Assembly (NCBI GenBank): GCA_944389495.1
Contig: CALXMN010000003.1
Location: 74,862-138,861, forward strand
Direction of reading: 5' to 3'
DNA length: 64,000 nt
Source of the DNA: an uncultured Alphaproteobacteria bacterium
GTDB lineage: Bacteria; Pseudomonadota; Alphaproteobacteria; Rs-D84
How positions within the stretch are numbered: position 1 is the stretch's first letter; the number at the start of each line of letters is the position of its first letter. The position numbers and the translations under genes were made by a program. The notes under the pieces were generated by a model that saw only the letters and a program-made list of their open reading frames with translations, was not told the origin of the DNA and did not search any database. Of this stretch, positions 23,115-43,852 are shown piece by piece.

Positions 23115-23268
23115 ATCTTATCCCCTTTGCATATATCCAGTTTACAAAAACAACGATGCCCGGCACAAGTCTAAATTATATTGCGGCCGTCATTTTAAAA
23201 TATGTCGATGTGGGGCATCCGTAACATTTTGCACGCCGTACGTTCAAATTGTGGACTGCACGTAATAA

Positions 23269-23292
23269 ATAAAACCGCCATACGGCGGTTAA
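23269..23292 (-). terminator. Terminator of tRNA-Arg
   Basis: AACCGCC/GGCGGTT stem with a minus-strand T-run, directly downstream of the tRNA. Confidence 0.8.
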
Positions 23293-23296
23293 TTCC

Positions 23297-30794: not shown

Positions 30795-30884
30795 GGAGAC
30801 GTGGCAGAGTGGTCGAATGCGCGCGACTCGAAATCGTGTATACGGGCAACCGTATCAAGGGTTCGAATCCCTTCGTCTCCGCCA
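30795..30884 (+). tRNA. tRNA-Ser(CGA)
   Basis: Class II tRNA with acceptor GGAGACG/CGTCTCC, anticodon stem CGCGA/TCGTG and loop CTCGAAA (anticodon CGA), a long variable arm, T-arm with TTCGAAT, discriminator G and encoded CCA. Its last 19 bases recur at 31058-31076. Confidence 0.95.
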
Positions 30885-31076
30885 GGAATAATAAAATGCC
30901 CCCTCACGGGGCATTTTATTATTCCCAGTGAAATGAAACGGTGCGAACACATCGCAATCGCAGATTGCCGGTTCGACAACAAGTAGATTTGCCAAACGTC
31001 AGTGCGGGCAAATCGTTACGGTTGCCCCGCAGCCGGCACACTTGTGCCGTGCAAGGAAATCCCTTCGTCTCCGCCA
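30866..31076 (+). repeat. Direct repeat of the tRNA-Ser 3' end (att-like)
   Basis: The last 19 bases of tRNA-Ser including CCA (30866-30884) are repeated exactly at 31058-31076. Duplicated tRNA ends are the classic footprint of site-specific integration. The 30927-31057 interval has no gene; it contains a CGGCACA/GTGCCG hairpin. Confidence 0.8.
30885..30925 (+). terminator. tRNA-Ser terminator
   Basis: Long inverted repeat GGAATAATAAAATGCCCC with its complement around a short loop, immediately after the tRNA. Confidence 0.8.
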
Positions 31077-31080
31077 CAAT

Positions 31081-31110
31081 AAAAAACACGCCCAACGGGG
31101 CGTTTTTTAT
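31081..31110. terminator. Bidirectional terminator after the DUF488 gene
   Basis: AAAAAACACGCCC/GGGGCGTTTTTT stem-loop with runs on both sides. Confidence 0.8.
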
Positions 31111-31532
31111 AAATGCGTAATGTCGATGTCGGGAAAATGCGATGCGATATATTCCGCGGCGAGCCTGCGGTGGCATTGCACTGCGGGTTTTTCTGTGCAT
31201 AACAGGCATATACGGTCAATGTCGACCGGGGCGAGCCCATCGGTCGGTCGGCGCGCAGCCAGCAATTCGCGATACAGTTTTTCATAATCGGCCCAAGTGA
31301 TGCAGCCGTTTTTATATCCTGTCAATATTTCTGTGGTTGGCGCAAATTCGGGATGGTATTCGTACCGCGCGCCCAATACCGTGGCCAGATTTTCACCACT
31401 GTAAAACGGAACGTACGCGCTGGCGCGCCACAGACGCACATCCCACACGGCGCGCACGCGCACTGCATTCAGGACCTCTATAAACCCGTCCGGGCTTTTA
31501 CCACTGAAACCGATTGTAAATATCTTTGGCAT
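31107..31532 (-). CDS. DUF488-family protein
   Basis: 141 residues. Family landmarks are IFTIGFSGKSPDGFIEVL at the N-terminus, WDVRLWRAS (the DVR motif), a FYSGENLATVLG segment, YEKLYRELL and the C-terminal ICLLCTEKPAVQCHRRLAAEYI with two conserved Cys and a His-Arg pair. DUF488 proteins are soluble and poorly characterised; they recur near DNA-related and conflict-system genes. Here it lies one base after the dual-OB-like gene, so they form an operon. Confidence 0.85.
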   Translation of the reverse strand: MPKIFTIGFSGKSPDGFIEVLNAVRVRAVWDVRLWRASAYVPFYSGENLATVLGARYEYHPEFAPTTEILTGYKNGCITWADYEKLYRELLAARRPTDGLAPVDIDRICLLCTEKPAVQCHRRLAAEYIASHFPDIDITHL

Positions 31533-31533
31533 A

Positions 31534-32184
31534 TCAATACAAAAATAGTCCGTTTAGCATCAAATAGCAATGATTTTCCTGCATCAGGAACTTTCGCGCC
31601 AACCCTATACGACAATGTGCATATTGGCTGGCTGCGACAGTACTATTTAAGCCTACAACATCTTTATCTTGATCAAATATGTCGCGCAAATATTTGCAAC
31701 TAACCTTTAATTCATAAGTCTGATTTGAAAAATCAGTAATACGAACACGTAATTTTCCATCTTCTGTAAAGAATTCAATATTATGTGCCGGTATCAATAT
31801 TGCACCCAATGACGGACATTTGGTTCCCTGCGCAACATAGGCATTTTCTTTGACATGATGATAAAATATACTTTGAATATCCTTTGACAAGCTTTCTCTC
31901 AGCGCAGTTGCCAATGTCTTGCCCGGTTCAAATTTTCGCAATACTTCAATAGAATCAATATCTATATTCACATCTTCAGTTCTGTGCGGATAATCACGTG
32001 GCTCTTTGAATTTTTCATTATCAACCAGTATTTCGCAGTATGTAGTCGGAATTTGACCGGCATCCCAGTATCCACCATCTAGCATCAGCCGTTTCATATT
32101 TTTTTCATAAGTATCAAATCCAGCAATACAGAATTTTTCTTTCATATATGTTATGTCGGAAATAATTATATTTGATTTTTTCAT
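31534..32184 (-). CDS. Dual-OB-domain-like protein
   Basis: 216 residues. The N-terminal pattern KKSNIIISDITYMKEKFCIAGFD and RLMLDGGYWDAG...TYCEILVDN matches my memory of the dual OB-fold family that often neighbours DUF488 genes; the C-terminal half (LRVRITDFSNQTYELKVSCKYLRD, then GLARKF near the end) looks like a second OB fold. OB folds suggest nucleic-acid or nucleotide binding. AAAGGA before the ATG at 32184 fixes the start. The gene is AT-richer than its surroundings. The family name is from recognition only and needs a profile search. Confidence 0.65.
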   Translation of the reverse strand: MKKSNIIISDITYMKEKFCIAGFDTYEKNMKRLMLDGGYWDAGQIPTTYCEILVDNEKFKEPRDYPHRTEDVNIDIDSIEVLRKFEPGKTLATALRESLSKDIQSIFYHHVKENAYVAQGTKCPSLGAILIPAHNIEFFTEDGKLRVRITDFSNQTYELKVSCKYLRDIFDQDKDVVGLNSTVAASQYAHCRIGLARKFLMQENHCYLMLNGLFLY

Positions 32185-32204
32185 GTGTTTCCTTTGGGGT
32201 AACA

Positions 32205-32304
32205 AAAATCCCCGCCAAGAACGGCGGGGCAAATAAAAAACGGCGATATAAATCGCCCGCTTAACTCAGCGAAATATTATACCAAAATTTGGTTAAAAAA
32301 TCAA
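32205..32304 (-). promoter_or_regulatory. Promoter with two terminator-like hairpins in the leader
   Basis: Minus strand: TTGATT (32299-32304), 17 bases, TATAAT (32276-32281). Then GGCGAT/ATCGCC with six T (about 32241-32256), and CCCCGCC/GGCGGGG followed by TTTTTG (about 32210-32229), then the AAAGGA site of the dual-OB-like gene. Transcripts would have to pass two intrinsic-terminator shapes before reaching the cassette. Confidence 0.65.
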
Positions 32305-32395
32305 TAAAAAAGATTGTGTTCTAAATAAATACCCTGTATTTGTCATATCTAATACCGTCAAATGTTACGCCTCCGCCACAATAAAAAACACGCCC

Positions 32396-32545
32396 GTATA
32401 GGCGTGATTTTTTTATTGTGTTTGACAATATGGATTCGAACCCGGGGGCAAGGGTTCGAACCGCCGCAAAAATAAAACGAAAAAATTATCATAAAAAACA
32501 TTGGATTTTTTATATAATGTTATAAAATGACCACCGTATGTTTTT
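32396..32545. other. tRNA-like inverted remnant
   Basis: Around 32434-32461 the sequence GATTCGAACCC...GGGTTCGAACC forms an inverted repeat of T-arm-like motifs, right after the outer direct repeat. It looks like scrap of tRNA sequence left by recombination. No gene is seen before the ATG of the next one. Confidence 0.4.
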
Positions 32546-43120: not shown

Positions 43121-43828
43121 TTATTGAACATATGGGCAACCAGTTGGCAAAGTATATGTTCCGGCAGTGTCGGAATAACTTTTACCACTGGGGTCTGGAT
43201 AAATTTTGCAGTTTGAAATACCAATGCCTGTGTTTGCCACCCAACACCATCCACCGGAACAATTTGAAGACCAATAATTGTTTCCTGTATTGGTACTGCC
43301 GCCATTTGGGGTTCCAGAGTATGACGGACAACGTTCACAACAATTTGCAAAGACCGTATATGATGTATAACCACCGGCACCAAATTGACAGGCACCCGTA
43401 CCACTGGGCGAACGATAATATCCACTGTCGCATCCCGCAAAAGCATATGTGTATGCAGTTGCACCAGCCCATGCAGCAGTCCGATAGGTGCAACCTGTAC
43501 TGGATGACATTGAACCCGAAGAATCAAATGTGCATCCTGTAAAGAAATAGGAACTGGTGCAATATACGCCCGTGCCGTTGCAGTATGAATTTCCGTTGCA
43601 TTCTGAAATAACGTTATAACGGTCTGTATAATTACAACCGTATTTATTTATATAATTATCGGCCCAAGAGTTATTATAACTGGCATAGCCATTTATCGTT
43701 GTTGGTTTGCCCCATTCGGTATACAATGCGCCATTATACACGCCATCTGCGGCGGTGGATGTTCGGTTCCAAAATGCCCCCACAACAGTCAAGATATACC
43801 CCAAAGTATGAATCCAAACACGTTTCAT
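43121..43828 (-). CDS. Secreted Cys/Gly/Ser/Tyr-rich protein, 235 aa
   Basis: Signal peptide MKRVWIHTLGYILTVVGAFW, then a mature chain full of Gly, Ser, Tyr, Asn and about 18 Cys. The C-terminal CCERCPSYSGTPNGGST...GKSYSDTAGTY resembles the end of the protein at 21371-22060. GGGGGA four bases before the ATG selects 43828 over an ATG four codons upstream. It has the same kind of multi-hairpin leader as that gene. Likely an extracellular disulfide-rich protein; no enzymatic domain. Confidence 0.72.
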   Translation of the reverse strand: MKRVWIHTLGYILTVVGAFWNRTSTAADGVYNGALYTEWGKPTTINGYASYNNSWADNYINKYGCNYTDRYNVISECNGNSYCNGTGVYCTSSYFFTGCTFDSSGSMSSSTGCTYRTAAWAGATAYTYAFAGCDSGYYRSPSGTGACQFGAGGYTSYTVFANCCERCPSYSGTPNGGSTNTGNNYWSSNCSGGWCWVANTGIGISNCKIYPDPSGKSYSDTAGTYTLPTGCPYVQ

Positions 43829-43852
43829 CGTTTCCCCCATTTTGAAAAACGA

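Follow-up and report, generated by a model that had tools for sequence, protein, structure and literature searches.

Why does a two-gene operon lie between copies of the end of a tRNA gene, and how did it come to be there? The question arose in a 64-kb stretch of DNA, here called the window (positions 74862-138861 of contig C3), which originated from a 905-kb MAG of 97% completeness. Named genomes of Candidatus Enterousia, an alphaproteobacterial genus from the gut, were among the relatives of this MAG. The relatives compared were MAGs throughout, and promoters and terminators were located by consensus-based scans. An original prediction had described the locus as a compact, portable module that lacked its own integrase and combined a DUF488 gene with a 'dual OB' partner. 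The repeats on which it was based were recovered: the 19-nt end of tRNA-Ser(CGA) had an exact second copy, and the 25-bp sequence CTCCGCCACAATAAAAAACACGCCC was present twice without mismatch. Between the 25-bp repeats were only two minus-strand ORFs, separated by one base (Table 1). Elsewhere in the window CTCCGCCACAATAAAAAACACGCCC did not occur, even with three mismatches allowed, and it appeared in 0 of 100 shuffles. The two repeats are unequal tRNA-end copies in an attL/attR pattern. At the left copy the tRNA end was complete (19 nt) and the terminator imperfect (-11.8 kcal/mol), whereas at the right copy just 8 nt of the tRNA end accompanied a perfect terminator hairpin. Joining the flanks in silico gave a site at which both the tRNA end and the terminator were perfect. 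Because the boundaries were hybrid and became perfect when joined, they were read as the result of a site-specific insertion within the 25-bp core.

Table 1. Features of the tRNA-Ser(CGA) locus in window coordinates.
Feature	Position	Strand	Evidence
tRNA-Ser(CGA), hotspot anchor	30795-30884	+	ARAGORN, Rfam tRNA
Terminator T1, perfect 18-bp hairpin directly after the CCA end	30885-30925	+	Inverted repeat I2
RtT-like unit X, covarying core and 19-nt tRNA-Ser 3'-end copy (31058-31076)	30926-31076	+	Covariance model
Left 25-bp att-like core (attL)	31069-31093	+	Exact repeat, boundary comparison
DUF488 protein, 141 aa, PADLOC PDC-M45C	31107-31532	-	Pfam, PADLOC, motifs
P2, 216 aa, probable divergent DuOB with OB-like C-terminal domain	31534-32184	-	Model, remote similarity
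Second intrinsic leader terminator, 28 nt from end of ATG	32210-32229	-	Terminator scan
First intrinsic leader terminator	32242-32257	-	Terminator scan
Operon promoter TTGATT-17-TATAAT, extended TG, conserved in relatives	32276-32304	-	Consensus scan
Right 25-bp att-like core (attR)	32371-32395	+	Exact repeat, boundary comparison
Terminator T3, full hairpin at original (empty-site) boundary	32375-32420	+	-20.5 kcal/mol

The order amiC, tRNA-Ser(CGA), ATL (an MGMT-like DNA-binding gene), AhpC and HU was kept across the genus. Comparison with related genomes, proposed earlier as a check, revealed the same tRNA-Ser(CGA) site either empty or with other cargo. It was empty in G012, G025 and G021, where the ATL gene begins 9-18 bp past the tRNA. 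A GH108 lysozyme gene was present at this position in G018 and G028 (in G028, by visual inspection), the repeat unit X alone in G020, and X with a DUF488 remnant in G010. The source genome held a second, decayed cassette copy at tRNA-Ser(GGA). In G012, an intact pair was located at tRNA-Ser(GCT), which is unoccupied in the window. Direct repeats that include the tRNA 3' end were found at both ends of the insertion, with 25 bp in the window and 64 bp in G012, where the att-like copies reach from tRNA position 29 to three bases past CCA. Measured from copy to copy, the G012 element comprised 1393 bp and the pair was its sole content. A tRNA was present on the same contig for ten placements, nine of them Ser (all four anticodons) and one Tyr (G009), and the operon pointed at the tRNA 3' end in all ten. 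The tRNA neighbours of other copies included Ser GGA and Ser TGA. Presence of the pair was patchy (7 of 35 genus genomes). Copies lost their homology at the stop codon of DUF488 and, at the opposite end, within the leader. The copies share kinship, and counts over them are therefore not independent.

The cassette contained two ORFs and no integrase of its own, for which reason the element is called non-autonomous. A cognate tRNA-Ser integrase was sought and discarded as a candidate: the integrases seen in the genus genomes examined were at tRNA-Lys and tRNA-Met, and none was at tRNA-Ser. The 1.3-kb cassette, comprising promoter, double-terminator leader, P2 and DUF488, was inserted at a tRNA-Ser 3'-end site. 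Based on the empty and otherwise filled sites, together with the G012 copy at tRNA-Ser(GCT), it was classified as a recombinase-less, tRNA-Ser-targeted integrative cassette. The portable module of the original prediction was thus borne out by empty sites and by other tRNA-Ser placements elsewhere. Non-autonomous tRNA-targeted elements, such as satellites and tycheposon-type islands, are characterised by att-like repeats of tRNA 3' ends, empty sites and cargo turnover. The cassette shares these features, including cargo turnover at one tRNA. It differs in its size of only about 1.3 kb, with two genes and no recombinase, in its landing on a downstream copy of the tRNA end in the window and in its use of several tRNA-Ser isoacceptors.

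Three further observations were made during this comparison. Across loci L142-L168, about half of the species had the tRNA-Ser(CGA) gene in reversed orientation with respect to its neighbours; with conserved flanks, this indicates that the tRNA flips while the flanking genes stay. On contig CALXMC010000006.1, two cassette copies about 9.6 kb apart (L058 and L059) had a common internal deletion of P2 (residues 26-189). The broken copy was accordingly duplicated, and not every copy has retained a complete pair. A 382-aa integrase was 99% identical in two species of the genus (G000:C5:109328-110473 and G098:C1:102134-103279), which suggests a recent transfer as judged from the sequences.

The exact tRNA-end copy at position 31058 had been interpreted as a footprint of the cassette. 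This did not hold, as the copy instead closes an independent and widespread RtT-like repeat, unit X. X is structured, comprises about 100 nt and sits between two terminators in the window. The covariance model R1 aligned to 30966-31077 with 96 bits (E 4e-22) and detected X in 88 of 96 genus genomes. X was also present in other genera of the family and in one genome from another family of the order. Altogether, 83 distinct units were collected (L090-L241), 63 of which had a same-strand tRNA upstream at a median distance of 77 nt. For 57 of these 63 units, no other isotype matched the closing tRNA-end copy as well as the unit's own tRNA did. An imperfect inverted copy of the tRNA end preceded the core (Wilcoxon 1e-7), and in two folded units (z about -4.4) the tRNA-end copy paired with the inverted copy. 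In the core, 96% of cells were paired, with 82 double changes vs 1 one-sided change. Pairing was strictly Watson-Crick with almost no G-U, a hint that pairing may occur in DNA and not in RNA; palindrome correction could give the same pattern. Tandem copies were spaced at 170-190 bp. X is a separate element from the cassette and has the 19-nt tRNA-end copy on the left as its 3' boundary. It is apparently on this tRNA-end copy that the cassette landed, and several relatives had X at a distance of about 0.6 kb or less from the DUF488-P2 pair. In G004, tRNA-Lys and X are separated by an integrase-bearing island, so X is maintained independently of it. Degraded X-core sequence, GTTACGGATGCCCC, was recognised by eye at 23202-23296 (minus strand) after the tRNA-Arg(CCG) terminator; it is below the threshold of the covariance model.

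Several origins of X were considered and rejected. Rfam searches at gathering scores returned only tRNA and tmRNA, which gave no known RNA family for X, and the Rfam RtT family had no match to X at E<=10. A REP/RAYT origin was dismissed since no Y1 transposase was present in 35 genomes, and a retroelement origin since reverse transcriptase occurred in just 10 of 35 and did not track X. Its occurrence beside at least 16 anticodon types argued against the scar of one integrase. A hammerhead-like motif (GATGA...GAAA) in some units had a mismatched core and was identified by eye as the inverted T-arm. The closest likeness was to the rtT repeats of E. coli tyrT (RttR sRNA), examined at NC_000913 1287066-1287236. 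To our knowledge, no rtT repeat has been described outside the tyrT operon of E. coli. Both repeats lie downstream of a tRNA, open with an inverted tRNA-end copy followed by GGTTCGA, close with a 19-nt copy of the tRNA 3' end and occur as tandem copies at about 180 bp. X differs in core sequence and structure, in its position between two terminators and in its association with many tRNA types rather than tRNA-Tyr. Model R1 scored about 10 bits or less on E. coli tyrT, in the tRNA-end parts only. The E. coli sRNAs rrA, rrB and rrF are located between dual rRNA-operon terminators (PMC8144298); compared with these sRNAs, X differs in lying downstream of tRNA genes, in its closing tRNA-end copy and in its unrelated sequence.

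The family placement of the DUF488 protein was confirmed by Pfam (4.2e-16), and PADLOC assigned it to PDC-M45C (2.1e-32). The motifs CLLC(-E) and QCHRR, representing the active site and catalytic Cys, were invariant across 17 homologues. The proposed Pfam check thus recognised one of the two proteins and left the 216-aa partner P2 without a match. P2 had no match in Pfam, NCBIfam and PADLOC (Pfam and PADLOC at E<=1), scores against PHROGs were sub-threshold and at chance level, and Pfam DuOB PF22557 exceeded its cut-off in no relative. Neither protein had a sequence match among solved structures. Homologues of DUF488 with about 38% identity were encoded on plasmids. Directly upstream of these was a protein of the same size as P2, identified as DuOB by Pfam and PDC-M45A by PADLOC, and downstream was DUF4326 or a second DUF488. 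P2 and the DuOB proteins had the motifs FCIAG, xTE(N/D) and KLRxR...YxL and C-terminal motifs in common. With hhalign, the 77 C-terminal columns of P2 aligned to DuOB at E 0.003, yet with a probability of only 11%, and 13 of 15 P2 sequences exceeded the best of 1000 shuffles in similarity to DuOB. The AlphaFold model of P2 was weak (pLDDT 52); its residues 122-216 aligned mostly to OB folds at Z of about 5, a value common by chance. The 'dual OB' assignment is accordingly retained in part: the OB-like C-terminal model, the DuOB gene slot and weak colinear similarity support it, but a Pfam match is lacking. P2 is a probable, not a proven, relative of DuOB. No full-length P2 relative was found in 288 other class-sampled genomes or on plasmids. 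A P2-like match in G044 was set aside as chance, the 755-aa ORF resembling an outer-membrane assembly protein. One IMG/VR contig contained a P2 relative, accompanied by MTase and defence-island-like genes and no recognisable phage genes.

PDC-M45 (DuOB PF22557, DUF488 and a further DUF488 or DUF4326) was the most similar known system. The cassette shares with it the PDC-M45C-type DUF488 and the partner of about 210 aa directly upstream, in the same gene order as on plasmids and in other Proteobacteria. It differs in a partner that neither the Pfam DuOB nor the PADLOC M45A model detects, in the lack of a third gene (second DUF488 or DUF4326), and in having tRNA-Ser att-like flanks and a double-terminator leader. 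Burroughs and Aravind reportedly proposed DUF488/DUF4326/DuOB systems as conflict systems that process nucleic-acid ends. Among relatives, copies of the pair adjoined GajA/GajB (Gabija) and a Cas4-like protein (L050), a PD-Lambda-4_A homologue (L045), a DrmMII-like cytosine methylase and a GHKL ATPase (L052), and an LmuA-like peptidase and a type I R protein (L044). With these neighbours and the PADLOC candidate family as its basis, defence is the best inference, and the pair would probably act against phages. Other settings were phage-like, with terminase/ParB-type genes near L043 and L053. GH108 lysozyme genes were located near L045 and L052. In G010 and G014, the pair was part of larger tRNA-Ser-linked regions of 7-16 kb.

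Two tandem terminators separated the promoter from the P2 start codon. This leader was recovered in 13 of 15 homologous loci, compared with 3 of 750 shuffles in the same scan. Five of 175 genes scanned had two terminators; three of these were P2, and the remaining genes accounted for 2 of 172. The same design was present in GH108 cargo genes at the same hotspots (L045, L052, L273). In the window, a 239-aa ORF without Pfam match (43121-43840, minus strand) was likewise preceded by two terminators, both within 92 nt of its start codon. A promoter followed by two tandem terminators ahead of the start codon suggests attenuation or antitermination as the simplest reading of leader control.

Taken together, a trans-mobilised, leader-gated defence cassette of the PDC-M45 kind that landed on a separate X unit is considered moderately probable. 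A tyrosine-type recombinase provided in trans by a phage or larger island would move the cassette, with recombination within CTCCGCCA and the first half of the terminator, and the tRNA-end copy of X would serve as landing site, sparing the tRNA. Transcription would start constitutively and halt at the two leader terminators, so that production of the proteins would require read-through or antitermination, as might occur when a phage infects the cell. P2 would bind nucleic acid as an OB-fold partner, and DUF488 as a cysteine-dependent enzyme would modify or process a nucleic-acid end. As a DuOB-DUF488 (PDC-M45) system, the pair would then be a nucleic-acid defence module with two components. 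Points that weigh against this reading are the missing recombinase, the failure of Pfam DuOB to recognise P2, the poor P2 model, the phage-like settings of L043 and L053 and the P2 deletion common to L058 and L059. A further proposal would regard tRNA 3' ends in this alphaproteobacterial family as an integron-like platform. X would be a DNA-folded recombination site that copies the adjacent tRNA end and offers pads for terminator-gated cargo (DuOB-DUF488, GH108), silent until an antiterminator, perhaps of a phage, is present. This is speculative and distinctly unlikely.

Other explanations were weighed against the trans-mobilised defence cassette. The locus might be what decay has left of a larger phage or satellite island that brought the pair to the tRNA-Ser sites as cargo, with leftover repeats and genes whose job is phage- or island-related instead of host defence. 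The larger regions in G010 and G014, the terminase/ParB-type and GH108 genes near other copies and the leader common to GH108 genes would fit such a remnant. However, the G012 element of 1.39 kb is cleanly bounded by its 64-bp ends and contains only the pair, and homology between copies ends as for a defined unit, which makes a remnant rather unlikely. The repeats could also stem from tRNA-Ser genes and X units that recombined homologously or were duplicated, the cassette being carried along without any site-specific recombinase. Genomes hold many tRNA-end and X copies, in the source genome tRNA-Ser(CGA) and tRNA-Ser(GGA) are each followed by X and an intact or decayed cassette, and the genomes examined yielded no tRNA-Ser integrase. 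Hybrid attL/attR boundaries and the G012 repeat starting in the anticodon arm are nevertheless typical of tyrosine-recombinase att sites, and an origin by duplication is judged unlikely. A different function was considered as well, namely a toxin-antitoxin or housekeeping module for RNA or DNA end processing instead of anti-phage defence. A catalytic DUF488 with an OB-like partner would suit any nucleic-acid end chemistry and a double-terminator leader would suit a toxic product kept low, but the patchy presence and the defence systems adjoining several relatives' copies render this improbable.

The locus clearly exemplifies how a defence-like gene pair moves in nature among tRNA-Ser genes as a recombinase-less unit of 1.3 kb. 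The conserved double-terminator leader makes phage-antitermination switching of such operons easy to test. The X units extend the rtT repeat to a class that spans the family, sits at many tRNA genes and has a new covarying core, and the role of tRNA-end repeats thereby becomes a comparative question.
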